Assembly: GCA_947478865.1 (NCBI GenBank)
Contig: CANJXF010000044.1
Coordinates: 1-33,799 of the forward strand
Source of the DNA: Verrucomicrobiales bacterium
GTDB lineage: Bacteria > Verrucomicrobiota > Verrucomicrobiia > Limisphaerales > CANJXF01
DNA: 33,799 nt
Direction of reading: 5' to 3'
In this document: positions 4,865 through 25,140 of the stretch, in pieces
Layout: each line of letters opens with the position of its first letter
How positions within the stretch are numbered: position 1 is the first letter of the stretch
Translations under genes and position numbers: made by a program
The notes under the pieces: generated by a model
Database searches by the model: none
The model's input: only the letters and a program-made list of their open reading frames with translations
Told to the model about the DNA's origin: nothing

Positions 4865-5728
4865 CTAGTGCAGCGACTTAACCACGTTGGAATACAAACA
4901 CGACATATCCCTCGAATGAAGCCGTTCCCACATAAATATGGTCTGGCCTGATATCGGCCTGATATCGTAAAGAATTTTTAATCTCTGTAAATCATAGCGA
5001 TGGTTTGTGATACGCTCGAGACGGCTGTAATGGCGCAACAATTCCTCCCACGAATCACCGGTGGGCTTCAATAATTCCCAATGAACCCTGTGCGTATGCC
5101 TGATTTCCTCCATTTCCAATAGTCCCGAAGCAAATAGCGAAAGGTCTTTTTTAATTCGATCGACCGAATGTTTTCGGATTGTTGCTGCCTCATCATAACC
5201 TCCCAAGATAAATTCGTGTTTTTGCCATTCGAGATTTGTCATTTGTTTTTGCAGTGCGGAAATTTTGCTGTTTAGGGACATCCTGCGGCTCGCCTTTCGC
5301 AGAAGGTTAAACTGCTTCCGAGAGGCTGAAAGCTCAGTTTCAATATTGAAAACTTTTCTATCAAAATCAGCTATTTGCTTTGCGACTACCGAATCGGAAA
5401 GGTCGCGAGGTGGTGGAAGAAAAGTTTCTAAAACAGCGACTAAACCTCGAATTGAAGCGGATTGGCTGGTCAGCAAATTTTGATATTGTTTCGCTTTTAA
5501 AGGGCGTAGGCATTCTTCCACGAAAATCCGAACATCTTTGAAATCTATATCTGGATTGACACTCCATAATCCATTGTTGGAAATCGGCGAAACTAACAGC
5601 TTGTAAAGCTCTAGCGTCGAAACAGGAATCGCGGTCACACACGATTCGCACAGGCCGGAATCATCTCTGCACCATAAAAAAAGCACTGGCTTAAAACATT
5701 TAGAACATATGACCGGATTCAAGCTCAT
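4865..5728 (-). CDS. zinc-ribbon plus coiled-coil protein, unknown function
   Basis: Protein of 287 residues that I do not recognise as a named family. The first 30 residues hold two Cys pairs, C8-x2-C11 and C27-x2-C30, with an extra Cys20, typical of a small treble-clef or ribbon zinc site. Residues about 110-180 are charged and heptad-like, with long Lys/Glu/Gln helices, probably a coiled coil; the C-terminus is mixed helical. It starts 22 bp after the stop of the stand-alone HTH gene on the same strand. It is therefore probably the last gene of the train that begins with hsdM. Base composition looks more A+T-rich than the upstream operon, suggesting a separate origin. It may be a scaffold or nucleic-acid-binding accessory of the defence cassette; this is inference. 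Confidence 0.65.
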   Translation of the reverse strand: MSLNPVICSKCFKPVLFLWCRDDSGLCESCVTAIPVSTLELYKLLVSPISNNGLWSVNPDIDFKDVRIFVEECLRPLKAKQYQNLLTSQSASIRGLVAVLETFLPPPRDLSDSVVAKQIADFDRKVFNIETELSASRKQFNLLRKASRRMSLNSKISALQKQMTNLEWQKHEFILGGYDEAATIRKHSVDRIKKDLSLFASGLLEMEEIRHTHRVHWELLKPTGDSWEELLRHYSRLERITNHRYDLQRLKILYDIRPISGQTIFMWERLHSRDMSCLYSNVVKSLH

Positions 5729-5750
5729 GCTACCGACAAGTTTAATTCAG

Positions 5751-5960
5751 TTAGCCGTTTTGCTTGGCATCAAACTCCAAGGGAAGTTTCAGCCGGCACT
5801 TCATGAAATCCACATCGCGCATGATGGTGCGCCACGAGACTTCAAATTCCTTGGCGATGAGGTTGCAATTGGGAAAAGACTTTTCCTGAATGAGGTTATG
5901 GAAGCGCATCATCCGCTCCCACGGTGGGCGGCTGAATACCTCGGTTTTAGTTTTGGCCAT
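5751..5960 (-). CDS. stand-alone HTH domain related to the WYL regulator
   Basis: Sixty-nine residues aligning end to end with the N-terminal helix-turn-helix of the WYL regulator at 24010-25140. Shared words include SR.PW at the start, FPNC, FEVS, RDVDFM and LPLEFD/LPIEYD; about half the positions are identical by eye. It stops right where the full regulator continues into its linker and WYL domain. It is thus either a truncated regulator or a deliberate DNA-binding-only form that could compete for the same operator. Its ATG at 5960 lies 7 bp beyond the helicase stop (5968) and the gene at 5728 follows closely, so it is embedded in the operon. A larger frame through 6344 on this strand overlaps the helicase gene and is not used. 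Confidence 0.65.
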   Translation of the reverse strand: MAKTKTEVFSRPPWERMMRFHNLIQEKSFPNCNLIAKEFEVSWRTIMRDVDFMKCRLKLPLEFDAKQNG

Positions 5961-5967
5961 GATGTTT

Positions 5968-8670
5968 TCAGGGGATCGTGGTTGGGTCATTTGCCGTGCC
6001 TTGACATGCGATGATGCCAAGCAACTCCAATTCGGGTTGCCGAAAGGGAAGGTCCAGCGAATCAAGGGCAGCGCGGGCCATGGCATCCGCCCGTGCAAGC
6101 AGCGCAGAATCGCCTGGGGCGGCGGTGGCTGGAGTGGTTTCTTCCCCGGCGAGAGGCTTGAGGTTGGATGAAACGGCATTGAGCCACTGAAGAACCTCCC
6201 AATCCTTGTAGAGCCCAAACTCGCCGCGCATATAGTGTATGCCAAGGACGATGGACTTCGGCTGGGCGGGATTGCCAGTGATGCGATCGTATGTGCGGAA
6301 AACGAATAATACTCCCGGTGTATCTGTTTGGTGAGACACGGCATAGGAGGGAGTCAACTGACATGCCTGCTGCAAAGCCGCGTCAAAGACCCGGCTGCCG
6401 ATGCCAAGAATCGTGCCCTTCATTGGAGTCGGCGGGCGGCGTTCAAAATGAGCATCATCGTAACGTGGCTTGATGCCTGGCGTGCGCTGCCAAGACTCAG
6501 GCGTTTTGAATGCGAGCATCCCCCCGGCTTCCGTCACTTGACGACGATTGTATCGGAGCGCGAGTCGGAAAAATGGCGCCAAGTCCGGCAAGTCGAGCTT
6601 GGGAACTTTTTCCGAAACCTGCGCAAAATCAAAATGCTGAGCGTGGCCTAAGAGGTCTTGAACCACGCGAACCGCATCCTCGCCTCCCATTTGACCCGTT
6701 TGCTGGTCAAACCATTCCTCCAGCTTCGCGCGGGGCACTTGATCTGCCGCCGAGAAGACGGCGTCCAACATGCCGGGGCGAGCGATGCCCAAGACCAACT
6801 GATGCAAATCTTCTGGCTCCTCGGCGACGGCGTTAATAGAGCGGCGAATGCGCTCAAGCTTCTCATTCAGGAGTTCCCAGATTCGCGACTCGACCGTATC
6901 TGGGTTCTGGAAAAGCATCACCTTGACGATGTCGCGCTGACCAATGCGGTTGAGCCGTCCGACGCGCTGATGGAGGCGCATGGGATTCCAAGGGAGATCC
7001 ACGTGGATCAGGCGCGAGCAGCGTTCCTGCAGATCGATGCCCTCGCCGGCAGCCTCGGTGGAGATAAGGAAGCGAATCTCGCCCGAATTGAACTTGTCCT
7101 TGGCCGTGTCGCGCGACTCACGAAGGTCGCGCAACGTGCCGGATGGGGTCGGCACGCCCGGTAACGCTTCATCGCCATTGATAAAGGAGGCACTCTCCAC
7201 CCCGAATTCGCGCCAGAGTGCAGCGAGGAGCTTGGCCTGAGTGACTTTGTATTCTGTGAAAAACAAAACTGATTCCCCGGGCGGGAGTGCGCGGACATGA
7301 GCGATGATGGTTGCAATCTTGGTTTCCACGAGAACCCGGTCTGCTGCCGCAATCAACTCGGCGAGCCGGGCGCATTCGTTTTCCATCAGCTCCAGATAAA
7401 GCGTAGCGATCTCGTCTTCGACGACCGGATTTAGGGAATCGGGATCGTCACTGAAACGTTCGAGCCGCCGGGTGGCATCCGTTGCGTTTGGCAAATTGCG
7501 CTGCACACGGGACGAAAGTTCACGCAACTTTACGAGTCGCCTTTGTAGCGCGCTTCGGACCGCTGCTACGGAACTGGAGGCGAGTTTCTGGAGCGCGATC
7601 AGCACCAGCATAACAGTGCGTCCCCGGTCGCCTTGAAGTCCGGTGGCATAGGCGCGGCCGGAGGCGATAAAGTCTGTCATCATTTGATAGAAGGCAGCCT
7701 CCTCCGGGTTGTAGTGGTAGGGGATAGTGCTGACTTGGGGTTCCTGAAAGAGGCGCTCCCCGCGAAGGTTGGTGACGTGATACTTGTTGTTGCGGACGAG
7801 GGCCTGGGGCAAGAGGGCCAATTGCGGTTCGACAGGGCGGCGCGGATCAAATAAGTCGGGACGCACGAGTGACATCAGCGCGAGAAACCCGTAGTGCTTT
7901 CCGCGATGCGGGGTGCCCGTAAACAGCAGAACCGACTGTAGCTGGTCGGCCTCCTGCAATTTTTTGATGAGGCGATGGGCGAGCGTCATGCCGGCTTGCT
8001 CGTCCACATTGAGGTGGTGAGCCTCGTCCACAATGATGAGATCCCACGGGTCCGTCTGGAGCATGCGGTCATGGCGGCCATCTCGGTCCTCGCGCAAAGT
8101 GTGGAAGGAGGCGACTACCTGCGGGTTCAGTTTCCAGAAATCGACCCGTTTTGAATCGAGCTCAGGATTATATTGGGCCATGCGAATGTCGAACATGGCG
8201 AAGAGCCTTTCCTGCCACTGCTGAACCAACGAGGCGGGACACAGGATGAGGAGGCGTCGAATCAAGCCGAGGTGAAACAAGCGCCAAAGAATCAGACCAG
8301 CCTCAACCGTCTTGCCGAGGCCGACGTCGTCGGCAACGACCCAGCGGACGGGCCAGTGTTCGGTAACCTTGCGACAGACCCAAAGCTGGTGAGGATACAA
8401 ATCAATGCGGCTGGGGGAAAAGACGCCCCAGGCATCGTTGACCGCCCGGATGGATTCACCGAGCAGGCGCAGAGTGACCGAGGATGCGTGAGCGGGTTGG
8501 CCTAGGAGGTAGCTGTCAGCCGCCGAACGTAAATAGGTGAGCTCGCGAGTGAGGCACTCCTCGATGCCGCGGACAAAACGCACCAAGGTGGTCTCGCCCT
8601 TGGAATACTCGACCACTCCGCGTCCAAATGTGTCGTGGTTGACGGGACTGCCGGGAGGAAGTGGGTTCAT
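5968..8670 (-). CDS. SNF2/RapA-type superfamily 2 helicase
   Basis: Nine-hundred-residue Swi2/Snf2-like ATPase. The N-terminus (about 7-50, FGRGVVEYSKGETTLVRF) looks like the small beta-barrel that precedes RapA-type helicases. Motif I is DDVGLGKT at 114-121, motif II DEAH at 215-218, motif III TGTP at 251-254. The second RecA lobe has ISTEAAGEGIDL near 536-547 and motif VI QRVGRLNRIGQ at 568-578. An insertion of about 130 residues rich in Arg and Glu separates the lobes (about 330-460). The C-terminal 300 residues are not recognised. Such enzymes translocate on double-stranded DNA without classical unwinding. Its ATG overlaps the stop of the giant GHKL gene by 4 bp, so the two proteins are probably made together. 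DrmD of DISARM is a comparable SNF2 enzyme, but no other DISARM gene is present. Confidence 0.93.
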   Translation of the reverse strand: MNPLPPGSPVNHDTFGRGVVEYSKGETTLVRFVRGIEECLTRELTYLRSAADSYLLGQPAHASSVTLRLLGESIRAVNDAWGVFSPSRIDLYPHQLWVCRKVTEHWPVRWVVADDVGLGKTVEAGLILWRLFHLGLIRRLLILCPASLVQQWQERLFAMFDIRMAQYNPELDSKRVDFWKLNPQVVASFHTLREDRDGRHDRMLQTDPWDLIIVDEAHHLNVDEQAGMTLAHRLIKKLQEADQLQSVLLFTGTPHRGKHYGFLALMSLVRPDLFDPRRPVEPQLALLPQALVRNNKYHVTNLRGERLFQEPQVSTIPYHYNPEEAAFYQMMTDFIASGRAYATGLQGDRGRTVMLVLIALQKLASSSVAAVRSALQRRLVKLRELSSRVQRNLPNATDATRRLERFSDDPDSLNPVVEDEIATLYLELMENECARLAELIAAADRVLVETKIATIIAHVRALPPGESVLFFTEYKVTQAKLLAALWREFGVESASFINGDEALPGVPTPSGTLRDLRESRDTAKDKFNSGEIRFLISTEAAGEGIDLQERCSRLIHVDLPWNPMRLHQRVGRLNRIGQRDIVKVMLFQNPDTVESRIWELLNEKLERIRRSINAVAEEPEDLHQLVLGIARPGMLDAVFSAADQVPRAKLEEWFDQQTGQMGGEDAVRVVQDLLGHAQHFDFAQVSEKVPKLDLPDLAPFFRLALRYNRRQVTEAGGMLAFKTPESWQRTPGIKPRYDDAHFERRPPTPMKGTILGIGSRVFDAALQQACQLTPSYAVSHQTDTPGVLFVFRTYDRITGNPAQPKSIVLGIHYMRGEFGLYKDWEVLQWLNAVSSNLKPLAGEETTPATAAPGDSALLARADAMARAALDSLDLPFRQPELELLGIIACQGTANDPTTIP

Positions 8671-11600
8671 AACGTTGGGTAGGAGAAATCCCTTGGCGCT
8701 GCATCAAGTTCAATACTGTCTGCTGCCTCGGCTTCAAACTCCTGCTGGAGGACCTGGGTGCGGAGGTCCTTGTTTTCTGCCAGAATCTGGAGAGGCAAAT
8801 CGAAGCAATGTTTGAATGTCGGGTCGAGCGCCGGCTGGAGGCTGGCACTCAGTTGCTGGAGTTCGGAAAAAATGGTCACCGAAGCAGAAGCACCGGCGTA
8901 TCCCTCGGAAGTGCCGAAAAGCTGGGTGCATAACCGACGCACCTTACGAATGGGTGTGAAGGCAAATTGGTAACCGTGAGGATTCTTAAGTCGCCCCAAC
9001 CGATATAATTCCCGGAGAAGTTGGCAGGTGCCCATACCGAGCATACCACTTAGGGGCGGAGCGACGATACCCGTGCCCGAGAGATTTTGATTAGCATTCG
9101 GACTGAAGACCAAATTGAAAGCGTCAGGCTGGATGGAACTCTCCGCTGCACGCAGAGAATGGAGGAACGCATCCAGATTCCGTGACACCGCGTAGAAGGC
9201 GATGAACTGGCGCATTTGGAAATGAAACTCGGTGTTCTGCAGATAGGAGCCGAGGTATTTGTCGAGAGCGGCAAACAAGGAGTGTGGATCATCAGACACC
9301 CGTGACAGAACATCCACCCAATCGTTCTCGATGAGAAAGCGGGTAAAGCTCTGGTCGCGACCGATGCGGTTAAATCCGAGTGGAACCAAGGCAGCCTGGA
9401 TGAAGAGCAACAGCCAGCGTGCTTGAGCGGAAGGTGTGGCGGCAGCATCCCACTCGTTCTCGCCTGGCCAAGGCAACGTTCCGGGGAACCCTGACGGGTA
9501 GGTGCGGTTCTCGTAGGATGCGGTCCAAGTTGTATGCTCGCGCGCCCACCATTCTGACACGCAGCGAAACGCCACATCGGCAGGCATAACCTGAATGACA
9601 GGGATGTCCGTGTTTGTCGGGAGAGTGATGGGTGGTGCAGTCCAGATGTGATGGCGCAAAAACTTACGTTCCAATTCATTCACATCATTGACCGACAAAC
9701 TTTGGAAAGCTGTTGTCGAACGTTTGGTGTCGAGCCATGGGCGACCCAGTTCATCGGCCAGTTGCTGGCCAAGCTCGCCGTTCACGAGATACTGGAAGAT
9801 GGCAGGCAGTTGGTCTGACGTAGCCTGATCAACCCAGCCTTTGAGCGTTGCGGCGTTGGCCGCGAGCTGTCCACGGGCCTTGATGAAGAAATGCAGCGCA
9901 GCATCGGAATAGCCGGAGGAAAGAATTGCGGATGGCGGGGCAAACTTTGCGCGATCTGCCTCATCCTCGTCGATGAGTCCGGCGAGTGACCGAGGGCAAA
10001 CAAGTGCCGTGGAAGAGTGATACTGACCGTCAGAGGCAAGCAGCTTAATCTCAGCGAGGGAGGAGAGAACGGGCAGCACCTCTGAGGCATAAGGGCTGGC
10101 CGGCTGAAAAAGCGCGCTGCACTGAAGGAAAAGCTGACCGATGCGCTCAGCTATAAGATGATTGGCTTCTTGCTGATTGCCGAGCTCCGCTTTCAAAGCG
10201 GTGCGCAAGTTGATCTCGCCCTGAAGCTTTTGAGTGGGGAGGACTTGCTTGAGGAAGTGAGCCACAGGGACGGCAACGGTCTTGCCGGGAGGATAGGCGG
10301 CCTGCACGGCGGGCCATTCAGCAATCAAGGCGAAGCAACCGTTATCCTGATCGGCGAGCAAGCCTGTGACGGAAAAATGAACGTCGTCGCTCTTAACCAA
10401 CCGATCATAAGCGGCCGGAAGTTGGGCCGGGATCGCGGGGCGCTGCTGGATCAACCGCAGCATCGCGCCGGTGGACTGTGCCCATGCAACATAGCCCAAC
10501 ACCTGTCCACCATCGCGCAGGTTCTCCCATTTGGTGGCAGGCCAAGTCCGGGTCATCTCATTCCAAAGTTGCTGCCACCAGGTCGCAAAAGAGGCGGAGG
10601 AATGCAGGCCCAACTGACGAGCGAACTCATCCCAACGGGTCTGCGTGGCATCAAACAACTCCAGCAACGACTGAAGCCAGGCGTGAGCCACTTCCTCCGC
10701 AATCTGGCGATTCACCGGATTGTTGAGGGCCAAGCGCTGGCGACCCGCGTCTGGTTTGAACGGCGCGTTCAACGCCCAGCGCAAGTCCGAGTGTTCGGTG
10801 GTGGGCGTGGTGATCCAAAGTCGTGGCATCGCTTCCGGCAAAGCTGATACGCCACTGGCGTCCAAGGGCAGCAGCACTGAAGCCGGGCGGGCGTCGGCGC
10901 GCAACGGGCAGCGAAAACAGAGATAGGATTGTTGGCCTACTTGGATGTGTGTGAACCGCCCGGAGCTGGTCAGCTTGTTTTTATCTTCGTGGCTGGTGAA
11001 GGTGGCAGTCGTGTCGCCATTCTTGACGATCAACGTGCGGATGCGTCGAGAGAAGATGGTCAGCAAAGGAGCTACCTGAGTGAACGCCTGAAAAGCCTCA
11101 GCGAGTTTCTCGGGCGTTGTGCTCTCGGTCCACTTGAGACGAATGGCCGTAGGCACCAAACCGGGAACGCCAAGGGACTCCGCCCACTCGCGCAAAGCTT
11201 TCGCGTGATCGAGCTGCAGTGGCACAGGGTAGAAGCCGCCGCGAATCTCGAAGGCGAGCCGGCCGCTGACCACCTCGGGTTGGTCCGCCACGAAAAAGAC
11301 CGTCTTGAAGCCGAGACCAAAACGCCCGGTTACCATTACCGGCTGATTCTCATCGCCAACACCCTTGTCGGAAAAATTCAAGGTGAGCATTTTCTGCAAA
11401 TCCTGGTCGTAGCCGCGCTTGAGACCTTGGGAAAAACCGGGGAAGGCGTGCCGATTGATCGGGCGTCCCCAGTGGATCAACTCCAGCCGCCGCTGGGCCG
11501 TGTCCAAGTGGACCACGAACTGACGTTCATGCGGATGAAGGTCGCGCTTCATCTCGTCCCATTCGGTGACAGCGTCGTCGGCATTTTGAAACAACTCGAG

Positions 11601-14600
11601 CGCGACCGAATCGAGGCTGTATTGGAAGTCTGTCATCTTGCGGCGGACCGCCTCGACGAGCGTGCGCCGGGTGGCGTCATCCTCGGAAGCATCCAGGAGG
11701 CTGACCAAGGTGCGTTTTGCGTCGGTGACCAGCTTCTCGGCCTTTTCGAACTTCTCACGAGAGCGCGCGGGAGATTGAGTTTTGAAAAGGTCAGCATCGA
11801 CGCGAGCTTGTCGTGCTTCACTGAATGCCCTCAGGACCTGCTCGAAAGCCGGGAAGCCGCGCACTGCCAATTCTTTGAGGCGAGCCTCGGCCATATCCAA
11901 GAGATAAAGCTGGCTGCGTTTGAGATCGGCCTGTCCAGCGTCAGCCACGTCCCCGAGCAATTCCTTGAGATTGGTGGGACACAGGCTGCCGACGCCATTG
12001 CAGTGGACCTTTAGCAAGATGGTTTCGATGGTGGAAGCGAAGATGCTAACGGGGTCTGATAAATCGTCAGGCCGCTCGATGGCGCGCAGACGCAGGCGAT
12101 GACATTCCGTATCCGGGCGGTTCTGGTAGAAGCAACGCCGCCAGAGATCAGAGGGATCGCCAACAATTAGCGTATTGATATCCGCGGTCAGGTCCACGGT
12201 CACCATGTCGCCGGTAATGGTCTGTGCCTGTGTGCTGCGGCCATGGACCACCTCGATAATGAAGCGCTGGGAACGAACTTGGTTAATAATCTGGGAGCGT
12301 TGGTCGCCCAAGAGATAAAGCAGAAAGTCGTCCGGGTCCTGGGCGAGGCCGGTTTGGAGCAACTCGCGCAGAAGCGCAACCATGTTGGGATGGCTGCCAA
12401 GAACGGCCACAAGTGCCGCGGGGAGGATGTCCCCCACGTTGCCATTCCGGAAGGGCTGGAGGTAGCCGGCCATGATTCTGGCCTGGGCGGCGAAATCCGG
12501 GGCGGACGGCAAGCTGTAATCACCTAGATTCAAGTGGCCTTGAACGGCGTGCTGCGCGGGAGCCGCAGCGCCCGGCTGAATCGGTGCGCCCCGGATGGTC
12601 GAGAGAATGCGGTCCTGCTCCTGACACAATTGCGCAGCGGGATCGAGATTGGCAGAGGGCCAAATCAACAGGTGGGCGGAGCGCCACTGACCGCGCTGGT
12701 TCACCAGTGACAAGCGGGGAAGCATTGGCACAACCACCGAGTCGGTCACGGCCTGACGCAAGTAGGCATCGAAGGAGAGGCGAGATGGTGAGCTTGCCAA
12801 CTGCACGAGCACGCGCTCAAGGCGGGTCGCGCCGTCTTTGGCATAGGCAAAAGGCCGCAGGATTGAGGGCCAAATGTGTTCCCGCAACTGCGCATCCCAG
12901 TGCTCGTTGGTAGCCTGATTAGGGAGACGCCAGAGACTGGCGAGCAGCGAAGCGCCGGGAAGGTCAGGGAGGTTTTCGAGCGAAGGGAGAAACTTATCCA
13001 ACTCTTGAGGCATTGACGACTCGGTCAAACCAAGATGCCAATCCGGTTGATCCTTGAGCCAAAGGCCGAGAAGGCCAAGGGCCTCTTCGAGGGTTGGGAA
13101 ATATTTTTTCAGCGTGGCGAAACCCGGATGTTCGACCACGGAAAGCGCGAGAGCTCGGGTGCCAGCAAGGCCGTCTTCGGCAGGATCGAGCAGGGCGTGG
13201 AGTTCAGCCTCCAAACCTTCTATGAAAAGGATGTAGGCGGGCGAGATGTTGCCAGTGGGCGACAAGGGCAACCATTCGGTCTGCTTTAGTTTGGCGCCAA
13301 GTCCACGGACCGCCTGGTCACCCCTGCTCAGCGCTTCCATGATCAAGGGCGACCAAGCAAACGCCTCGGAGGATTCAAGGCAACGACGGACGACATAATT
13401 CCAATCGAGGCGGGCCACGTAGGATTCGCCGTCGGGCGTCGTCAGGCGGAAGATGGTTTCTTGAACGGTGGAGGCCAAGCCATCGGCGACGCGTTCAACG
13501 ATCTTGGTGGTGGAGAGGAAGCGCTCCCAGAGCGGCACGAGTTGTTGAGAGATGCCAGACTCGAAATTGAGAGTGTGAAGGACAAACAAATCACCCAACC
13601 GACCATTTGCTGCCGCGATGGAAACACGCTCATTGGACTGCCCGCGCAGTTTGTGCAGGCGAAGTTTGCGCAGGAGCGCAACCGTGCCATCGGCATTGGA
13701 CTGCCCAGCCTGGAACAGGCCGTTGAGCAACGTGGCGACATCTGCGTCAGACCATTCGTCGGCCGGGAACTCCAGCGTGCTGAAGTCGGCCTGAGCGGTC
13801 ATCAATTCCTCCCACGCGCCCTGCTCGTCGATGGTGGATACCTTCAAATCCTGTTGTGCCTGCGGACTGAGGATTGAAGCCCACTGCTGGTCGAGAAGAC
13901 GCCAAGAGTTTTCCCCGCCCTCATGAATGAGCAATTGTTTAATAAGACGACTCCAGATCAGCTTGCCGGCCTGGGTGGACGGCATGAACAGGAAATGATC
14001 GCCGTCACGAGCCTGGGGAACGTGGCCGTGCATGAGGTAGCGCACTGCCAAGCAGACTGCACCGGGAAGCACTGGCTGGGAAAGAAAGTGGCGCACGAGG
14101 GCTGCGCGCGCAATGAACTCACCGAGCCGGGACTGCGCAACGACGACAGGAGCGGCAGTATGGATGTTGAGCGAAGGAGCATGCTGGCCCGCAAACCATC
14201 GGGGAATGTTCCAATCGTGAATGATGCAAGACCAGTCGGGCAGTGCAGGATGCAGAAAGCGAAGCCAGTCTTCTGTCTGTGGACTGGGGCCAAAGAGCTG
14301 GTCGGACGCAATGGCAGCACTCCAATCGTCCACGCTAATGCGCCGGTGCTCTCCGGTGCGAGCGATGCGCACAGGTAAAAGGGGAAGACGGGAGACGCGC
14401 TCGCGAATGGCGGGCGTGAGCGAATTGGCTTCGTGCAGATAGGTTAAGAAGGCGTTGAGCCAATCCGCTGCCGCTTGATCACCAGTGGCGCCCAGTTGCA
14501 CGTCCTCCAAAAGTTGCAGGACCAATGCTTCGTGCCAGTGCCGGACTTTACCATTGTGGAGCCCCGGCAAATCTCCCTCACTGTCGGGGGTGATGAGAGC

Positions 14601-16184: not shown

Positions 16185-16196
16185 GCGCCTTTGGGT

Positions 16197-16862
16197 TTAA
16201 GACAGCCTCCCGGCTTCAAGGAAGCTGAAGTAGGCGGTGCGGTTGAAAATGATGTGGTCGAGGAGGGCGATGCCCAGGATTTCACCGGCTTGTTTGATCT
16301 GGCCGGTGATGGCGATGTCGCTCGGTGACGGCTCAAGGCCGCCTTCGGGATGGTTGTGCGCGATGATGATGCCGGAGGCGCGATCGGCGACGGCGTCGGC
16401 GAAGACCTCGCGCGGATGGACCGGGCTGCGGTCAATGAGGCCGATGGAAATGACTCGGAAGTTCAAGACTTCGTTCGCGCCGTTGATGGTGGCGCAGAGG
16501 AAATGCTCCTGCCGGCGGTCGGCATAGTGGCGGACGAGAGGCAGGAGGTCGGCAGGCGTCGTGATTTGTGTGCCGGCGGGTTTGATCCGGCGGCGGGCAA
16601 ACTCGATGGCGGCGAGAATGAGCGTGGCTTTGGCGTCGCCGACAGCGCCGAACTGCTTGAGGTCCTCGGCGCGGAGGTTCAGCCCTTTGGCGTCCACGAC
16701 GGCGGTGAGCTTTTCGGCCAACGTCATCACGTCAATGGACGTGTTGCCGCTGCCAAGCAGGACGGCCAAGAGTTCCTGGTCGCTCAATGCCTGCGCCCCG
16801 CGCGCCAGCAATTTCTCACGCGGGCGGTCGTGCGCCGGAATCTCATGTATGGGCCGGGTCAT
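16197..16862 (-). CDS. radC: RadC family JAB/MPN-domain protein
   Basis: Protein of 221 residues, the usual RadC length. It has an N-terminal helix-hairpin-helix-like region (about 1-95, including FGAVGDAKA at 71-79) and a C-terminal JAB1/MPN metalloprotease-like domain. Family motifs are complete: HPREVF at 149-154, the zinc-binding HNHP at 169-172, and SPSD at 179-182 with Asp182. RadC was once linked to repair, but its biochemical role is still unclear; it is frequent on mobile elements and near restriction systems. Here it lies between hsdR and the giant GHKL gene. Its ATG overlaps the hsdR stop region by 4 bp, so it is a translationally coupled member of the operon and not a chromosomal housekeeping copy. 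Confidence 0.95.
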   Translation of the reverse strand: MTRPIHEIPAHDRPREKLLARGAQALSDQELLAVLLGSGNTSIDVMTLAEKLTAVVDAKGLNLRAEDLKQFGAVGDAKATLILAAIEFARRRIKPAGTQITTPADLLPLVRHYADRRQEHFLCATINGANEVLNFRVISIGLIDRSPVHPREVFADAVADRASGIIIAHNHPEGGLEPSPSDIAITGQIKQAGEILGIALLDHIIFNRTAYFSFLEAGRLS

Positions 16863-19801
16863 GCAGCGAAGGCGAGATTGGTGTCAATGACGGTGATGGC
16901 CATGATGTCGAAGATGCCTCCCTCGCGGGTATAATCGGGATTGGCCAACTCGTTGTAGCGCCCACGCCCATCGTAGGCATCCTGAATCTCGCCGTTGACC
17001 TGGCTGCGATACGTCCCTTCCAAGAACATCCGATCTCCCCGGTGCGCGGTAACGGTCGTGCGAATGACCGGGTCGGCTGCCTTTTCCTCGGTGACTTCCT
17101 TGATGTAGAGCGCTTCCTCGTCCGTGATGTTAAATTTATTCCGGATTTCGGTGATCATGTCCTGGACGGAAACTTTCTTCGGCGGCGGGCCAACGCCTTT
17201 CTTGCCATGCCCGGGTTTCAGCTTCACCGGCCCGGCGCTGGTGGTGACGCCCTGATATTCGACGGCAGCCTTGATGACCTCCGTCTTCCGGATTAGCTTC
17301 ATCAGGTCGGACACGCTGCCGAGCTTGATGAGCTGTTCGCCGATGTATTCGGCAAAGGTTGCGAACTCCTTCAACTCCGCCGCGTAGCTGAAGAAGCAGG
17401 ACAGGAAGTGGAACACCTTGACGTAGCGGGCGAGCAAATAGACGAACGACTTGCGGTCCTCCGCATCCACGATTTGCGCCTGAAACCGCGTGCGCAGCGC
17501 ATTGACGAAAAATTGGACCTGCGCGTCCGTGCCGCTGGCGACGAGCTTGGCGAAATCCGCCGCGTCTTTCTGAGTGAACACCCCCGTCGCCAGAATCTCG
17601 TTGTAGAGTTTGGGGCACAGGTCTTTGTCCGGTTCTTGGGGCGCGAACGGTGTGCCTTTGCGGTATTTCTGGAACGCCTTGAGGATGGCTGCCGCGTTGT
17701 TGGTAAAGTCCACGACCACGACGTCTTTCTTGCCTTCGTGGCAGCGGTTCAGGCGCGACACCGTCTGCACGGCGTTGCGGTCCACGACGGGTTTGTCGAG
17801 GAACATGCCGGCGAGCATGGGTTGGTCGAAGCCGGTCTGGAATTTGTTGGCGACGACCATCAAGCGGTAGTCCTCGCCCTCGAAGCGGTCCTCAATCAAC
17901 TCGCTCGGCTGCAATTCATTGACGGCGTGCTCATGGATTTCCGCGTTGGTTTCCGGGTGCGTGAAATCCGAGAAGGCGTAGAGCACCTTGTATTTAGCAC
18001 CACGCTCCTTGAGTTTTTCCTTGATGATGTTGAAATAACGCAGACCAGCCACGCGGGAACTGGTGACAATCATCGCCTTAGCCCGGCCTTCGATGAGTGG
18101 CATCACCTTTTCCTCGAAGATGCGGAGCATGACCTCGGACTTGTATTGGATCAGGCCGTCGTCCGCGAACGCCACGTTCATGAGGGCCTTGGAGACGAGG
18201 CCTTTGGAAAAGAGCTTTTCACCCTCGCCTTCGGGCGGAACGAAATGGCAGTGCAGGTTGTAAAGCGTCTTGTAGGAAATGATGCTGGCCGCGACATCCA
18301 CGATGTAGCCCTCGGCGATGGCCTCGGCCTCGGTGTAGCTGTCGAACGGATTGCCAAACAGATCGAGCGTGGCCTGTGAGGGCGTGGCGGTGAACGCGAC
18401 GAACAACTGATTGGTGTCGTGTTCACGGATGACCCTGGCAAGCTGTTCCTCCGGATCAAGTTCCGGCGCTTCGGCGTCGGGTTCGGTCGGTTTGCGGAAC
18501 GGCAGGCGAATGGCCGCACCCATCTGACCTTCCTGCGACCGGTGCGCTTCATCAATCAGGAAGGCTACCCGGAGAGCCTTCAACGCCGGGTTCTTTTGGA
18601 GTTCCTCCAGCACGTAGGCCAGCTTCTGCTGCGTGGTGACGATGATCGGCTTGCGGTCTTTCAGAAAGCGCGGCAGGTCGTCCGCCTTTTTCGCGAAGCC
18701 AACGATGTCCTTGAGGTGCGTGAAATTCTCCATGTCCTCCCGGACGTTCGTGTCGAGCGCCTTGCGGTCGGTGAGGATGAACGTGATGTCCAGCAACTTT
18801 TCGTTCGTCCCGGGCTTAAACAGGCTGTGCAAGCGGTCGGCCAGCCAGCAAATGGAGAGGGTTTTGCCGCTGCCCGGCGAGTGCTCCGCCAGGTATTTGC
18901 GGCCGATGTTGCCGGTCTTGGCGTAGTGCGCCGAAATATCCTCCGCGACCGTGCGCACGAGCCGGGCCTGATGGTAACGCGGGAAGATGGTGAAGGCCGG
19001 ACGCTCCGGCTTGTCCGCCTCCGCCTCGCGTTTCGGCACGCGCACGAGGAAGAAAGATAGCGCCTCCAACAACTGATCCTTGGACAGCACCTCGCGATAA
19101 AGGAACTCGACCGGATATTCGTCCGGGTTGGTGGGCACATTGGTCAGGCCCATGTTGTGCCAACGGAAATTCTCCACCCGGCGCGGATCGGTGGCGGCCA
19201 TCACATCGCTGGTATCGGCGGCGAGGTAAAGGAACGGGTGCGAGAAAATCTTGTGCTGATGGTCGCGGTCGGCGAACTGCTGGACGGCATTATGCACGTT
19301 CTGATTCGCCTCATGCTTCAACTCCAAATCCACAATGGGCAGGCCGTTCAGGAAGAAAACGAAATCAATTTCCTTGGGCGCTTGGCCGGGCGCGACTGCG
19401 CCAAAGTAAAAATGCGGTCGGAAGGTGATGCGGTTTTGAGCGTATCCCTCAGCCCCGGCACTCGCGGCGGACCGGGGTTTGGGGTAGTAGAGCAACAGCC
19501 GCACGCTCTTTTTCACTTCGAGGCCATCCCGCAGAATCATGCAGAGCGGTTTGCGCTCCAATTCCTTGCGCAACGCCTTGAACACCTCGTCCCGCGCGTC
19601 CGTGCTGTAATCTTCCTCCAACTTCTTGAGCGTGTCGGCCTGGGTGGCTTTGAGGAAGGCCCATAGGAGATCCTCAGCGATAAAATGCTCGGTGTCCGTG
19701 ATGTCGGACTGTTCCAGCACGCCGTAGCCGTGCTCGCGAACGAGATACTTCGCGATGTGCTTTTGGAACACCAGTTCCGGCGCTTTGTTTGTTTTAGCCA
19801 T
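16859..19801 (-). CDS. hsdR: type I restriction enzyme R subunit
   Basis: Restriction and translocation subunit of 980 residues. The N-terminal PD-(D/E)xK nuclease is visible as EIDFVFF (Asp146) and PIVDLELK (Glu160-x-Lys162), followed by the QxxxY-like NVHNAVQQFADRD region. The motor has Walker A SPGSGKT around 308-314, DEAH at 417-420, and TATPS at 471-475, and a second lobe including KFQTGFDQP and VSRLNR. The C-terminal helical region would contact the methylase core. It would translocate DNA from an unmethylated HsdS target and cut at a distance. The start at 19801 overlaps the hsdS stop by 8 bp. All catalytic residues I can check are intact, so the subunit looks functional. Confidence 0.96.
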   Translation of the reverse strand: MAKTNKAPELVFQKHIAKYLVREHGYGVLEQSDITDTEHFIAEDLLWAFLKATQADTLKKLEEDYSTDARDEVFKALRKELERKPLCMILRDGLEVKKSVRLLLYYPKPRSAASAGAEGYAQNRITFRPHFYFGAVAPGQAPKEIDFVFFLNGLPIVDLELKHEANQNVHNAVQQFADRDHQHKIFSHPFLYLAADTSDVMAATDPRRVENFRWHNMGLTNVPTNPDEYPVEFLYREVLSKDQLLEALSFFLVRVPKREAEADKPERPAFTIFPRYHQARLVRTVAEDISAHYAKTGNIGRKYLAEHSPGSGKTLSICWLADRLHSLFKPGTNEKLLDITFILTDRKALDTNVREDMENFTHLKDIVGFAKKADDLPRFLKDRKPIIVTTQQKLAYVLEELQKNPALKALRVAFLIDEAHRSQEGQMGAAIRLPFRKPTEPDAEAPELDPEEQLARVIREHDTNQLFVAFTATPSQATLDLFGNPFDSYTEAEAIAEGYIVDVAASIISYKTLYNLHCHFVPPEGEGEKLFSKGLVSKALMNVAFADDGLIQYKSEVMLRIFEEKVMPLIEGRAKAMIVTSSRVAGLRYFNIIKEKLKERGAKYKVLYAFSDFTHPETNAEIHEHAVNELQPSELIEDRFEGEDYRLMVVANKFQTGFDQPMLAGMFLDKPVVDRNAVQTVSRLNRCHEGKKDVVVVDFTNNAAAILKAFQKYRKGTPFAPQEPDKDLCPKLYNEILATGVFTQKDAADFAKLVASGTDAQVQFFVNALRTRFQAQIVDAEDRKSFVYLLARYVKVFHFLSCFFSYAAELKEFATFAEYIGEQLIKLGSVSDLMKLIRKTEVIKAAVEYQGVTTSAGPVKLKPGHGKKGVGPPPKKVSVQDMITEIRNKFNITDEEALYIKEVTEEKAADPVIRTTVTAHRGDRMFLEGTYRSQVNGEIQDAYDGRGRYNELANPDYTREGGIFDIMAITVIDTNLAFAA

Positions 19802-21113
19802 GCCCTTTGACGTGGTTCAAATCCGCCTCCGCGATCCGCCGCTGGCCGGTGACGCATTCGTGAATCAGTGACTTGCGGTAGTCCTTGAGCGTGGCGATTT
19901 GGGTCTTGATGCCGGTGACAAGGCGCTCCATGTCAGCAAGCTTTGTGTCTAGGAAATCAGCGATGGCTTCTTGCTCTTTGCGTGTGGGTGGCAATGCCAT
20001 GATAACGCTTCCCAACTCCTCAGCATTCAGATGCGGTTGGGCGGCACGGAGCGTCAGTAGCAGAATTTGGCCTTGAAGGACGTAGCGGCTCAGTAAGCCG
20101 TAGGCGATGAATCGTGACGAGGCGCGCGTCGCGGTCACAACCATGTCGTAGCCTGCCACTGCGCCCTCCAACTCTGACGGAACAATGGCGGAGTCTCCCG
20201 TGTATGCTCCGCTGCGAACAACGATAATCTCTCCAGGCTTTAGATATGGGTTTCTGTCTCGCGGCAACGCGTCTGGATCGACACGAAGTAAATTATCTGT
20301 GTAAATCTTTCCTCCATCCACATCTGTTGCGCGGATCATTGCCACACCGGATGCAAGTTCTGCTGGTGGTTGCCCCAGTCCGTAGCGGATGCTGGCAACG
20401 GATTTAAGTCTATCTAGCCGCCAGCCGTTCGGTATCAGCGGCAAAGCCGATGAACCTGTTGAAATGGTCTGGACTCCATCGCTGATGCCGAGAGTGATGG
20501 CGCGGAGAAGTATCGAACTACACAGTTCATCGAGGGTTTCGAGTTGGCGGCGTTTGGCGGAGACGGCGGCGTCAATCGCGGCGCAACTGGCATCCAGATA
20601 AGCCGCAATACGTTGTTGCTCCGGCAGCGGCGGATGAACAATGTATTTCTGTTTGATTGTCTCTTGTCCGATATTTTGTTGGCCTCCTCCAAGACCGTCG
20701 GCAATCAGGTCAGCCCGCATAGACCTTAGCGTGTAGAACATGAATCTCATGTCCACAGTTTTGCGGACAACCAATGCACAACACGCCTGATTTACTGCCG
20801 CTGCAAATTTTAAGATTCCCAGTTTTCCGATTGTCGCTCCATACATCGCAACTAGCAGAGTATTCTTTGGGTAAAGTCGTGCAGCCGAATTTCGCAGCCC
20901 TTTTTCGGTAATTGTTTTTGCCGTTTCATCCAAACAATCGTCGGTGAGATCGCCCGTTTGCACCCAAGGGATGCCGCCGTCGTAGAAATCTGGATTGCCT
21001 GTCGGCGGCGTTCCACCTGAACCAACAAAGTCACAAAGTCGCGCAATTTTGTCGCGCCGCCACTCACGCGGAAGTTCGACTGTCGAATGCCCGTTCTGGC
21101 GACGGTCACTCAT
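19794..21113 (-). CDS. hsdS: type I restriction enzyme specificity subunit
   Basis: Specificity subunit of 439 residues from the ATG at 21113, chosen because it overlaps the hsdM stop as ATGA and begins MSDRRQNGHS directly before the first recognition domain. An upstream frame extension to 21359 only overlaps hsdM. The protein has the classic two-fold layout. TRD1 covers about 15-170, and the first conserved helix contains PLPEQQRIAAYLD and a long AIDAAVSAKRRQLETL helix. TRD2 covers about 225-375, and the second helix contains RKEQEAIADFLDTKLADMERL. The two TRDs differ in sequence, so the target is expected to be a bipartite, asymmetric site. The target cannot be read from sequence. Confidence 0.95.
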   Translation of the reverse strand: MSDRRQNGHSTVELPREWRRDKIARLCDFVGSGGTPPTGNPDFYDGGIPWVQTGDLTDDCLDETAKTITEKGLRNSAARLYPKNTLLVAMYGATIGKLGILKFAAAVNQACCALVVRKTVDMRFMFYTLRSMRADLIADGLGGGQQNIGQETIKQKYIVHPPLPEQQRIAAYLDASCAAIDAAVSAKRRQLETLDELCSSILLRAITLGISDGVQTISTGSSALPLIPNGWRLDRLKSVASIRYGLGQPPAELASGVAMIRATDVDGGKIYTDNLLRVDPDALPRDRNPYLKPGEIIVVRSGAYTGDSAIVPSELEGAVAGYDMVVTATRASSRFIAYGLLSRYVLQGQILLLTLRAAQPHLNAEELGSVIMALPPTRKEQEAIADFLDTKLADMERLVTGIKTQIATLKDYRKSLIHECVTGQRRIAEADLNHVKGHG

Positions 21114-23098
21114 TTCGCTAACCCCTCCAGCATCTTTTCCGCTTGCTTTTCCAACTTCCAAAATTCGGCCAGCAATTCTTTTGCGGGGGTGGGCGGTTGG
21201 TAGCGGTAGAAGTATTTGTTCGGCAGGATTTCGTAGCCGAGCTGCGGGCTGTCCTCCCAACGGATGATGGACTTTGCGATTTCCCGTTTCAGGAAAGCCT
21301 CGATGTCTTCGCCGTGCGGGATGTATTCGTCGTCCTGCACGTAATGGCGATGCGTCCATTCGACGGAGAGGATTTCCTGCACGTCTTCGAATGTGGCTTT
21401 GAATTTCTTGGACGCGTTGTCCTTGGCCGTGAGGGCGAGCGTGACGGTGGATTCCTTGCCGGCCTTTTTCACGCGGGCACGAAACGTGAGGTCGCTGGCG
21501 TGGTATTCCAGTTCCTTGGACATGGTGGCGGCGGTGAAAGATTTTTCGTAAGGCTCGGTGACGATGGCCGGTTTGTCGTTCTCATCCGTCTGCCAGAAGA
21601 CGACGCTGACCTTGTGGTAGGCGAAATCTTCACGACGGAAAATCTTCACCTGCTCGTCGGCGTAACCCTTGGCCCAGCCGTCACGGTAACGTTCCTCAAT
21701 CCACGCGCGGTGCGCGTCGGTCATGCGGTTGCGTTTGCTGGCAAAGGCTTTGGGTTCTTTCTCGAATTGCTGCCGGGCGTCAATCAGCATCACACGTCCG
21801 CGATGGCTGACCGGCTTGTCGTTCCGATAAAGCCAGATGTAGGAAAAGATGCCGGTATTGTAGAACAACTGGTCGGGCAGCATGACGATGGCGTCGAGCC
21901 AATCGTTTTCCAGCATCCAACGGCGGATTTCGCTTTCGCCCGACCCGCAATCGCCATTGGAAAGGGGCGACCCGTTGGAAACGACGGCAATGCGGCTGCC
22001 GCCCTCCTCAGGCGGGATCATCTTGGCCAGCATGGTTTGGTGGAAGAGCAACGCGCCGTCGTTCACGCGCGGCATGCCAGCCCGGTAACGGGTGGCCTCC
22101 AGCTTGCGCGCCTCGGTTTCGTAGCCGTCCTTGCCGCCCCAGGTGACGCCAAAGGGCGGATTGCTCAACATGCGGTTGAACCGGAATTTGCCTTCGGGCC
22201 ACTGGTCGCCCGGCTCTTTGCTGTGCGGGTCGTGCGGGATGAGCGAGTTGCCCAAGGTCACCTTGGCCTGCTTGTCGTTTTTGATCAGGAGGTCGGCCTG
22301 GCAGACGGCGTAGTTCGTCGGGGAAATCTCCTGGCCGTGGACGGTGAGGAATTTTTCGACGTGCTCCCTTTCCTCCGGGGTCTTGGCGCGGTCAAGGAGG
22401 TGTTCTTTGCTGACGGACAACATGCCGCCCGTGCCGCCGGCGGGATCGTAAATGGAGAAATGCTTTTCCGGGATGGGGATTTCCAGCAACTCGACCATGA
22501 GGCGGATGACTTCGCGCGGGGTGAAGTGATCCCCGGCCTCATCGCCGCTTTGCTCCGAGAAGCGCCGGAGTAATTCCTCGTAGATGTAACCCATCTCAAG
22601 CGCCGATAGCTGGTCCGGTCCGAGCGCGAGTTCCTTGTATTGATTCAGGATCGGGGCGAGCCGGTTGTTTTTCACCATCACGCCGATGGTGGCGCGGTAA
22701 TTAAAGTGCTCGATGATGTCGTCAACGTTTTTGGAGAAGCCGTTGATGTAAGCGCGGAAGTTTTTCTCCAGCAGCGCCTGGTCTTCCTCATAGACGCGGC
22801 GGAGCGTCCAGTCGGTTGTGTTGGAGAACGGGCATTGCTTGGGATTGAGTTCAAGTTCCTTGACGAGCTTGGTGAGTTCCTTGGGCTTGTCCTTGAGGGC
22901 CGGGCGTTTGGCGAGCACCTCGGCAGACTTCGCCTCGCGCCACGCCAACAGCACACACTCCAGCCGCCGGATGACGATGATGGGCAGGATGACGCCTTGA
23001 TATTCGTAAGCCTTGAACTTTCCGCGCAGCCGCTCGGCGGATTTCCAGATGTCACCGGCGAGGTTGTCGAGCTTGGGTTTGTTCAGGGATAGGGACAT
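21110..23098 (-). CDS. hsdM: type I restriction enzyme adenine methylase subunit
   Basis: DNA N6-adenine methyltransferase subunit of 662 residues. The start is set at the ATG at 23098, where MSLSLNKPKLDNLAGDIWK begins the standard HsdM N-terminal helical domain; the upstream 19 codons look non-coding. The SAM-binding motif is DPAGGTGGMLS and the catalytic motif IV is NPPF, within MLSNPPFGVTW. An ISPTNYAVCQADLL segment follows motif I as usual. The last 130 residues extend beyond short HsdM proteins and contain charged helices that would pack on HsdS. It is the first gene of the train and defines its promoter side. No obvious Shine-Dalgarno precedes the ATG. A 27-codon open frame (23101-23184) ends just before it and could act as a leader. 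Confidence 0.96.
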   Translation of the reverse strand: MSLSLNKPKLDNLAGDIWKSAERLRGKFKAYEYQGVILPIIVIRRLECVLLAWREAKSAEVLAKRPALKDKPKELTKLVKELELNPKQCPFSNTTDWTLRRVYEEDQALLEKNFRAYINGFSKNVDDIIEHFNYRATIGVMVKNNRLAPILNQYKELALGPDQLSALEMGYIYEELLRRFSEQSGDEAGDHFTPREVIRLMVELLEIPIPEKHFSIYDPAGGTGGMLSVSKEHLLDRAKTPEEREHVEKFLTVHGQEISPTNYAVCQADLLIKNDKQAKVTLGNSLIPHDPHSKEPGDQWPEGKFRFNRMLSNPPFGVTWGGKDGYETEARKLEATRYRAGMPRVNDGALLFHQTMLAKMIPPEEGGSRIAVVSNGSPLSNGDCGSGESEIRRWMLENDWLDAIVMLPDQLFYNTGIFSYIWLYRNDKPVSHRGRVMLIDARQQFEKEPKAFASKRNRMTDAHRAWIEERYRDGWAKGYADEQVKIFRREDFAYHKVSVVFWQTDENDKPAIVTEPYEKSFTAATMSKELEYHASDLTFRARVKKAGKESTVTLALTAKDNASKKFKATFEDVQEILSVEWTHRHYVQDDEYIPHGEDIEAFLKREIAKSIIRWEDSPQLGYEILPNKYFYRYQPPTPAKELLAEFWKLEKQAEKMLEGLAK

Positions 23099-24009: not shown

Positions 24010-25140
24010 ATGAAAATAATTAAGAACGAAGAATTCAGAGTTGCGAAAGGCGAATTACGAAGTGCGAATGAAGAATCAGCGATGAGCGACCGGCGAGAAA
24101 AGATGCCGTTTGGGGACAAACGGCCTGCAAAAATGGCGAAAGAAAAGTTGAGTCGTTCGCCGTGGCGGAGAATTTTGCAGATCCATGAAAAGGTGCGCGC
24201 GGGTGAATTTCCAAATTGCGCGACGTTGGCGGCGCATTTTGAGGTGTCGACGAAAACAATGCATCGGGATGTGGATTTCATGCGGGACAGTTTGAATCTG
24301 CCGATTGAATATGATGTGAAACGGCACGGCTTCTATTACACAAAGACCGTGGATAAATTTCCCGGTGCGTCCATCACTGAGCAGGAAATGTTTGCGCTGC
24401 TGGTGGCCGATAAAGCGATTGCGCAATATCATGGCACGCCGTTTCAAAAGCCGTTGCGCATGGCTTTTGAAAAACTCACCGAGCAATTGGATAACAGGAC
24501 GCGCTATTCCATGGATGATTTGCAGGGGGCATTATCCTTTCGTCCATTTGCTCCAGAGGATACGGATCTGCACGCATTCCAAATTATTTCGCAAGCGCTG
24601 CAGGAGCATCGGGCGTTGAAATTCAATTACACGAATCTCGGCACGCGCACAGCGCAAGCGCGGCGGGTGCATCCGTATCATTTGGCGTGCATTGACAGTC
24701 GCTGGTGTTTGTTCGCGCATGATGTGGACCGCGCGGCGCTGCGAACATTTGTGCTGACTCGTTTGAGCGAGCCGATGTTGCTGAGTGAGCGGTTCGATAA
24801 GCCGAAGGATTTTAATGCGGATGAATATTTGCGCGGGAGTTTCGGTGTGCTCAAGGGGAGCGAAGATTTTGAAGTGGTGATTGAGTTTGATTTGTGGGCG
24901 AGCGATTTGTTGCGGGGACGGAAGTGGCATCCGTCGCAGAAATTAATCGAACTGCCAAATGGCTGCGCGCAAATGCAGATGCGGCTCTCAAGTCTGGACG
25001 AAATTGAGCGGTGGATTTTAAATTGGGGCACGCACGCGACGGTGGTCAGGCCGGAGCAATTGCGGGAACGGGTTGGAGCGACAGCGCGGGAAATTGCAGA
25101 GAAATATGACACTAGCGTGTCGGCCAATGGGAAAATTTGA
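24010..25140 (+). CDS. WYL-domain transcriptional regulator
   Basis: Predicted regulator of 376 residues. The first 41 residues look like translated repeat sequence, including MPFGDKRPA from a 20-bp palindrome. The conserved protein begins at Met42 (24133) with MAKEKLSRSPWRRILQ. I keep 24010 because it has a strong GGAGG site 4 bp upstream; 24133 is the alternative. Domains are a winged helix-turn-helix (about 45-105), a linker helix region, a WYL domain (about 190-265, including VHPYHLACIDSRWCLFAHD) and a C-terminal WCX extension (about 285-365). WYL regulators such as BrxR and CapW repress defence operons and respond to nucleic-acid-type signals. Its divergent position next to hsdM suggests it controls that operon. 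Confidence 0.9.
   Translation: MKIIKNEEFRVAKGELRSANEESAMSDRREKMPFGDKRPAKMAKEKLSRSPWRRILQIHEKVRAGEFPNCATLAAHFEVSTKTMHRDVDFMRDSLNLPIEYDVKRHGFYYTKTVDKFPGASITEQEMFALLVADKAIAQYHGTPFQKPLRMAFEKLTEQLDNRTRYSMDDLQGALSFRPFAPEDTDLHAFQIISQALQEHRALKFNYTNLGTRTAQARRVHPYHLACIDSRWCLFAHDVDRAALRTFVLTRLSEPMLLSERFDKPKDFNADEYLRGSFGVLKGSEDFEVVIEFDLWASDLLRGRKWHPSQKLIELPNGCAQMQMRLSSLDEIERWILNWGTHATVVRPEQLRERVGATAREIAEKYDTSVSANGKI
24105..24124. repeat. palindrome G, copy 2, read in frame in the WYL gene
   Basis: Identical to 23624-23643. It is translated as part of MPFGDKRPA in the N-terminal extension of the WYL regulator if translation begins at 24010. It lies 9 bp before the alternative start at 24133. Confidence 0.85.

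Follow-up and report, generated by a model that had tools for sequence, protein, structure and literature searches.

A question raised by a 33,799-nucleotide contig of a Verrucomicrobiales bacterium (CANJXF010000044.1, assembly GCA_947478865.1; the whole stretch is referred to here as the window) is whether eight closely packed minus-strand genes at positions 4865–23098 constitute one defence system or several units placed side by side. The initial annotation read them as a single coupled cassette in which a type I restriction–modification (RM) system is linked to RadC, a giant protein with two GHKL ATPase domains, an SNF2 helicase, a helix–turn–helix (HTH) protein and a zinc-ribbon protein. 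The layout is as it described: a check of the open reading frames (ORFs) recovered all eight genes in that order and spacing, with 4-bp overlaps between hsdM and hsdS, hsdR and radC, and the giant and SNF2 genes, an 8-bp overlap between hsdS and hsdR, and gaps of 12 bp from radC to the giant, 7 bp from the SNF2 gene to the HTH ORF and 22 bp from there to a gene for a 287-amino-acid (aa) protein. Nevertheless, reading them as a single eight-gene cassette is mistaken: two modules that are separable from each other lie together in the window, along with a truncated stub and a gene that is probably unrelated to either. The reading that we prefer, and to which we give somewhat better than even chances, is that the giant and the helicase form a portable two-gene module with a predicted anti-phage role, in which a giant with tandem GHKL units of the sacsin/Hsp90 type is co-translated with an SNF2 translocase of the RapA type, and that this module lies here behind an independent hsdMSR–radC operon.

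The giant (8667–16184, minus strand; 2,505 aa) and the helicase (5968–8670, minus strand; 900 aa) are a conserved two-gene unit across many bacterial phyla, and the pairing of a GHKL giant with an SNF2 motor is a part of the initial annotation that is borne out. Running the helicase profile A1 against 84,980 species genomes identified 46 helicase loci at 39–79% identity over most of the protein, with the next tier falling to about 28–35%. The giant, or a contig-edge remnant of it, lies upstream on the same strand at 45 of 45 evaluable loci, compared with 2 of 32 loci of distant SNF2 helicases (Fisher p = 2e-19); the first count is a hand correction of a scripted 37 of 43, which takes account of giants that are split or lie at contig edges and of long-start ORFs. 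Two of the 45 loci (L040 and L041) have about 0.7–0.8 kb between the two genes, the giant is broken in L042, and some cyanobacteria and alphaproteobacteria have it as two or more separate ORFs. All five plasmid-borne helicase homologues with coverage of at least 80% are likewise paired with a giant, and one full-length helicase relative was found in a collection of viral contigs. The hosts include Verrucomicrobiota, Planctomycetota, Chloroflexota, Cyanobacteriota, Deinococcota, Spirochaetota, Gemmatimonadota, Thermodesulfobacteriota, Acidobacteriota and Pseudomonadota; it is rare in the window's own order, with 4 of 320 genomes at E ≤ 1e-150, that of the window among them.

The two proteins have diverged together (Mantel r = 0.88, 0 of 2,000 permutations; 0.69 with distant pairs only). 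The closest pair, in genome G129, has a giant that is 76% and a helicase that is 89% identical to those of the window, and DNA homology between the two spans 6242–16165, beginning at the start of the giant. Ratios of non-synonymous to synonymous substitution (dN/dS) against this pair are 0.065 for the helicase and 0.12 for the giant, which indicates purifying selection on both, and are rough because the synonymous distances are near saturation. Two verrucomicrobial loci (L094 and L096) have distant SNF2 helicases, about 30% identical, directly behind GHKL proteins of 1,443–1,906 aa; these are possibly a deeper branch of the same pairing.

Domains of the window proteins were assigned using Pfam, PADLOC and NCBIfam, and the conserved motifs show three putative ATPase sites in the pair, two of the GHKL type and one of the SNF2 type. 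The first GHKL copy occupies residues 25–124 of the giant (15813–16112, minus strand; N-box E43..QN47..D50, G2 box G109RFGKG) and the second about residues 1520–1640 (11265–11627, minus strand; E1530LFQN1534ADD, G1620RFGLGFK). In 33 homologues of the giant, conservation of the N-box and the G2 box is for the most part 85% or higher, in the first copy as in the second. Pfam SACS and NCBIfam P_loop_sacsin each match the protein in two stretches, and, among the families compared, its best sequence relative is sacsin (E 5e-25), with MORC2 weaker (E 2e-5). AlphaFold models agree with the duplication: residues 1–1190 (predicted local distance difference test (pLDDT) 83) match sacsin SR1, Hsp90 and MORC2 structurally, and residues 1485–2503 (pLDDT 85), which cover the second copy, match Hsp90, GyrB and sacsin at Z about 16. 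The helicase has Pfam SNF2-rel_dom and Helicase_C domains with intact motifs (GLGKT, DEAH, EAAGEGIDLQ and RVGRLNRIGQ), and its closest solved relative in a profile comparison is RapA (E=4e-45), in a class that also comprises DrmD, BrxHII and the ARMADA protein ArmA (PMC12839542, PMC12458937).

The systems that accompany the pair change from one locus to the next. A second genome of the window's order, G033, also encodes an hsd unit, and its pair is carried by a separate contig, within a type I BREX (bacteriophage exclusion) operon with the order brxC–pglX–[giant–helicase]–pglZ–brxL and gaps of only 3, 5 and 21 bp. PADLOC scans, together with the DNA preceding 27 other pair loci, identified, just upstream and on the same strand, type I BREX in Sphingomonas oleivorans (L064), pglW–pglX–brxC–pglZ in Rubrivivax (L071), pglX–pglZ–BrxHI in Pseudanabaena (L043), a PglXI locus in Anaerolineae (L037), type III RM in Qipengyuania (L052), HmaA–HmaB–HmaC in G263, DISARM (defence island system associated with restriction–modification) with DrmMI, DrmA and DrmB in Paludisphaera (L036), IIG/DrmMI-type methyltransferases in L039 and G129, and type I methyltransferases in Planctomycetota (L031). 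In G129 the pair follows DpdE-like genes, DrmMI/IIG-type methyltransferase genes and others; a DruE-like helicase and other defence genes upstream of this pair (L024:3-5150) suggest a large defence island. Partner labels are unclustered on a quick helicase tree (12 changes, against a shuffled mean of 11.8). The loci of Qipengyuania pacifica (L052) and Sphingomonas oleivorans (L064) can be aligned at 81% DNA identity, starting about 40–50 bp inside the giant and running through both genes and a further ~10 kb downstream, and the homology resumes over 978 bp farther upstream; between these flanks lies type III RM in the former and type I BREX in the latter. On this alignment the two are the same chromosomal locus, in which the pair stayed and only the upstream methylation system was exchanged. 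Comparison of all these loci shows a pair that appears to move between partner systems, often directly behind or inside methylation-guided ones.

Other genes recur beside the pair in particular lineages. In three alphaproteobacterial loci (L045, L062 and L017), a gene for a TM0106-type RecB-like nuclease, 78–80% conserved, lies upstream of the giant, sometimes with WYL and HEPN genes, and is possibly a lineage-specific partner. On plasmid C of Trichormus variabilis (L015, 6806–13512), an unmatched helicase-related gene pair encoding 1,012 aa and 1,223 aa directly precedes the giant, which is split here, and its helicase; DISARM genes lie on the opposite strand.

The unit upstream of the pair in the window is an ordinary type I RM unit, of which radC as a fourth gene is the sole departure. 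All four genes are on the minus strand: hsdM (21110–23098; Pfam N6_Mtase and HsdM_N, PADLOC MTase_I at 558 bits, NCBIfam), hsdS (19794–21113; two Methylase_S stretches, Pfam and PADLOC), hsdR (16859–19801; HSDR_N, SWI2_SNF2 and T1R_D3, supported by Pfam, PADLOC and NCBIfam) and radC (16197–16862; a JAB/MPN domain, Pfam). The restriction system is complete, as had been proposed, with hsdM, hsdS and hsdR all present and intact by Pfam. Catalytic motifs claimed to be intact are indeed in place for HsdM (NPPF), HsdR (DEAH and a candidate N-terminal D..ELK) and RadC (HNHPEGGLEPSPSD); simple regular-expression patterns found neither the Walker A motif of HsdR nor motif I of HsdM, both of which rest on the Pfam family matches. 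G033 encodes hsdM–hsdS–hsdR–radC at ~71–80% protein identity (36% for HsdS, over the part that aligns), with hsdR reading as two ORFs and the contig stopping 184 bp past radC. A third genome of the order, G084, has hsdS–hsdR–radC, and the 1.2 kb beyond its radC contains no giant. In both genomes radC again comes after hsdR, and the DNA homology between the window and G033 ends at the radC stop codon (window 16199). These sequences show hsdMSR–radC as a separate unit that occurs without the pair. Conversely, no hsdM homologue (E ≤ 1e-10) occurs within 10 kb of the pair in 30 other pair-bearing genomes, and on both grounds we rejected a specific coupling of the pair to type I RM, or to radC, as the initial annotation had proposed; the co-occurrence check that it called for finds the pair independent of hsd genes, not of methylation-based systems in general.

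Divergent from hsdM is a full-length WYL regulator gene (24010–25140, plus strand; Pfam WYL, WCX and HTH_11, PADLOC WYL at 140 bits), a candidate BrxR-like regulator of the operon; its position agrees with the BrxR-type regulators known beside defence loci (PMC9122601). No RNA elements were found in the 0.9-kb region ahead of hsdM.

A predicted anti-phage function of the pair is very likely, and the mechanism that fits best, by analogy with related proteins, is that of a nuclease-free, ATP-driven clamp and motor acting as a second-layer effector. The giant would use ATP to close a clamp or loop around foreign DNA or around DNA-bound proteins, in the manner of MutL, MORC, gyrase and Hsp90, and the RapA-like SNF2 motor would then translocate on the DNA, stripping or displacing RNA polymerase or other proteins. 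Pfam and NCBIfam scans assigned no nuclease family to either protein, inspection of the helicase C terminus by eye revealed no invariant D-ExK-like, nuclease-like set of residues, no nuclease was among the structural matches shown for the giant, and no gene for a nuclease accompanies the pair throughout. The transcription or replication of invading DNA would therefore probably be blocked rather than the DNA being cut. A position behind a methylation-guided system might provide co-expression with it and a backup layer when phages block the first system.

A broader form of this proposal is more tentative, and we rate it at somewhat less than even: the pair would be a nuclease-free effector cassette that plugs into at least six methylation-guided classes (type I RM, type III RM, several BREX types, Hma, DISARM and IIG/DrmMI) as a common second line, the pair staying fixed while its partners are swapped, as at the Qipengyuania/Sphingomonas locus. 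The suggestion in the initial annotation of a second effector layer beside a methylation-guided recogniser fits these wider partner data, but its specific tie to HsdS and hsdMSR does not. If the proposal is true, one portable effector serves many modification-based immune systems, which would help to explain the extra killing power of nuclease-poor systems such as BREX and the recurrence of SNF2/RapA helicases in defence. The natural partner-swap locus allows a direct test of whether the effector depends on the methylation system.

Several observations weigh against these proposals. The clamp and RNA polymerase steps are drawn purely by analogy. Family, motif and structure evidence does not support a cryptic nuclease in the pair; however, the C-terminal helical regions are barely covered by it, and these regions, to which no function is assigned in either protein, may hide one. 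In 353 kb of DNA upstream of the pair there are 11 ORFs for methyltransferases, and in 354 kb taken elsewhere in these genomes as a control there are none, but the reference set contained proteins from pair loci, and the enrichment test is thus not fully blind. The control consisted of other regions of the same genomes because loci of Shedu (PF14082), tried as a defence-gene control, were too few, with only 5 genomes over the cut-off. Finally, in 17 of the 27 loci the 15 kb upstream contain no methyltransferase, so that the partner is optional and the apparent second layer may only reflect shared defence islands.

This last point leads to the strongest alternative, namely that the pair is a self-sufficient defence system and its neighbours are unrelated systems that share a hotspot and a promoter. 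It could well be correct, although we would not put it at an even chance. The loci lacking an upstream methyltransferase speak for it, as do two Deinococcus plasmid loci with none within 14 kb and the lack of phylogenetic conservation in partner identity. It accounts less readily for operon-tight joins, including the 12-bp gap in the window and the insertion between pglX and pglZ, and for the methyltransferase enrichment over control regions; only these two kinds of evidence separate mere stacking from a functional link, and both favour the link. An improbable alternative is that the giant is an Hsp90/sacsin-like chaperone that contributes to assembling or stabilizing large defence complexes (HsdM2S1R2 or BREX), with the helicase as its client or partner. 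Sacsin SR1 and Hsp90 are indeed among its best structural relatives and the partner systems are often large multisubunit machines, but the DNA-acting GyrB and MORC2 match equally well, many pair loci have no large complex nearby and the constant partner is a DNA motor rather than an RM or BREX subunit. Least probable by far is that all eight genes form one integrated system, with HsdS guiding a GHKL/SNF2 effector: despite the tight spacing on a single strand, it is contradicted as a conserved system by hsdMSR–radC occurring without the pair in G084 and G033, by the G033 pair sitting inside BREX, by the lack of hsdM within 10 kb of any other pair locus, by pairs that stand alone or accompany five or more other types of system, by an HTH gene that is a stub and by DNA homology to other genomes that stops at the radC–giant junction from both sides, although a lineage-specific functional link could exist in this host.

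The portable two-gene module ends with the helicase, and the two genes that follow it belong to neither module. The HTH ORF (5751–5960, minus strand) matches the intact 1-kb WYL gene of G129 (L137:9191-10195) at 86.6% nucleotide identity over 217 bp, up to window position 5752, where the end of the identity marks a recombination junction. It is, on this match, a recombination scar comprising the first 69 codons of a WYL gene, outside the pair, and was rejected as a seventh functional gene. The 287-aa protein (4865–5728, minus strand), with N-terminal CxxC pairs, was the supposed zinc-ribbon member of the cassette, and travels with neither module. Its gene sits in DNA of lower G+C content (46%, against about 58%), the protein matched no Pfam, PADLOC or NCBIfam family, and no homologue was found at any related locus searched; it was rejected as a system component on the last of these grounds and the gene is probably unrelated to the modules. 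Elsewhere in the window, a perfect 46-bp direct repeat (CACCTCATCCGGCCTGCGGCC...GAGAAGG) occurs at 27144–27189 and 30366–30411. A copy at 80% lies on contig C54 of the window's genome, and related ones lie beside the G129 WYL gene; the sequence looks like a dispersed intergenic repeat.

No existing defence model describes the giant and helicase as a unit, in agreement with the initial annotation, which recognized no named system; a text search of the literature, with subscription papers and supplementary files outside its scope, found no description of the pair as such. Two partial resemblances in PADLOC do not amount to membership. The first is to TmtA, which we take to be Tiamat: the giant is similarly a very large protein with a sacsin/Hsp90-like GHKL domain and gives partial hidden Markov model matches, but it contains two GHKL units and is constantly partnered by a helicase, whereas the TmtA profiles (1,302–1,782 positions) match its GHKL regions only, at 82 bits at best. 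The second is to DISARM. The helicase belongs to the same SNF2 superfamily as the DrmD of class 1 DISARM, BrxHII, ArmA and RapA, and profile PDLC02634, labelled DrmD, fits it over its whole length at 813 bits. However, it scores below the NCBIfam cut-offs for DrmD (NF038317, 256.6 against 610 bits; NF038318, 135 against 950 bits), Pfam and PADLOC detect no drmA, drmB or drmC among the cassette proteins, and in Paludisphaera the DISARM locus has its own DrmD-like helicase, 29% identical, alongside that of the pair. We therefore rejected membership in DISARM. An annotation correction follows: as PDLC02634 fits a non-DISARM helicase at full length, PADLOC would label the pair helicase as DISARM and may call components of that system where only the pair is present.

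The window's cassette also lacks pglX, pglZ and brxC in the Pfam and PADLOC scans, genes that are present around the G033 pair. There, the position between pglX and pglZ has a conceptual parallel in the auxiliary or backup effectors that are recruited into BREX loci (PMC12839542), a paper whose main text mentions no GHKL, HSP90, MORC or sacsin proteins. The closest precedent is older. GHKL ATPases beside superfamily 2 (SF2) helicases, including SWI2/SNF2 proteins, have been known in RM neighbourhoods since 2008, with DNA looping as the proposed action (Iyer et al. 2008, PMC2292703). As in those MORC/paraMORC neighbourhoods, a GHKL gene adjoins an SF2 helicase gene at 45 of 45 pair loci. That account mentions no sacsin-type proteins and names HNH, EcoRII-like and Vsr nucleases among the neighbours, whereas the giant of the window combines two sacsin-type units and has no nuclease as a regular companion. 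The general theme of a GHKL protein and an SF2 helicase near RM genes is thus already known; the tandem sacsin-type variant with a RapA-type helicase is new.

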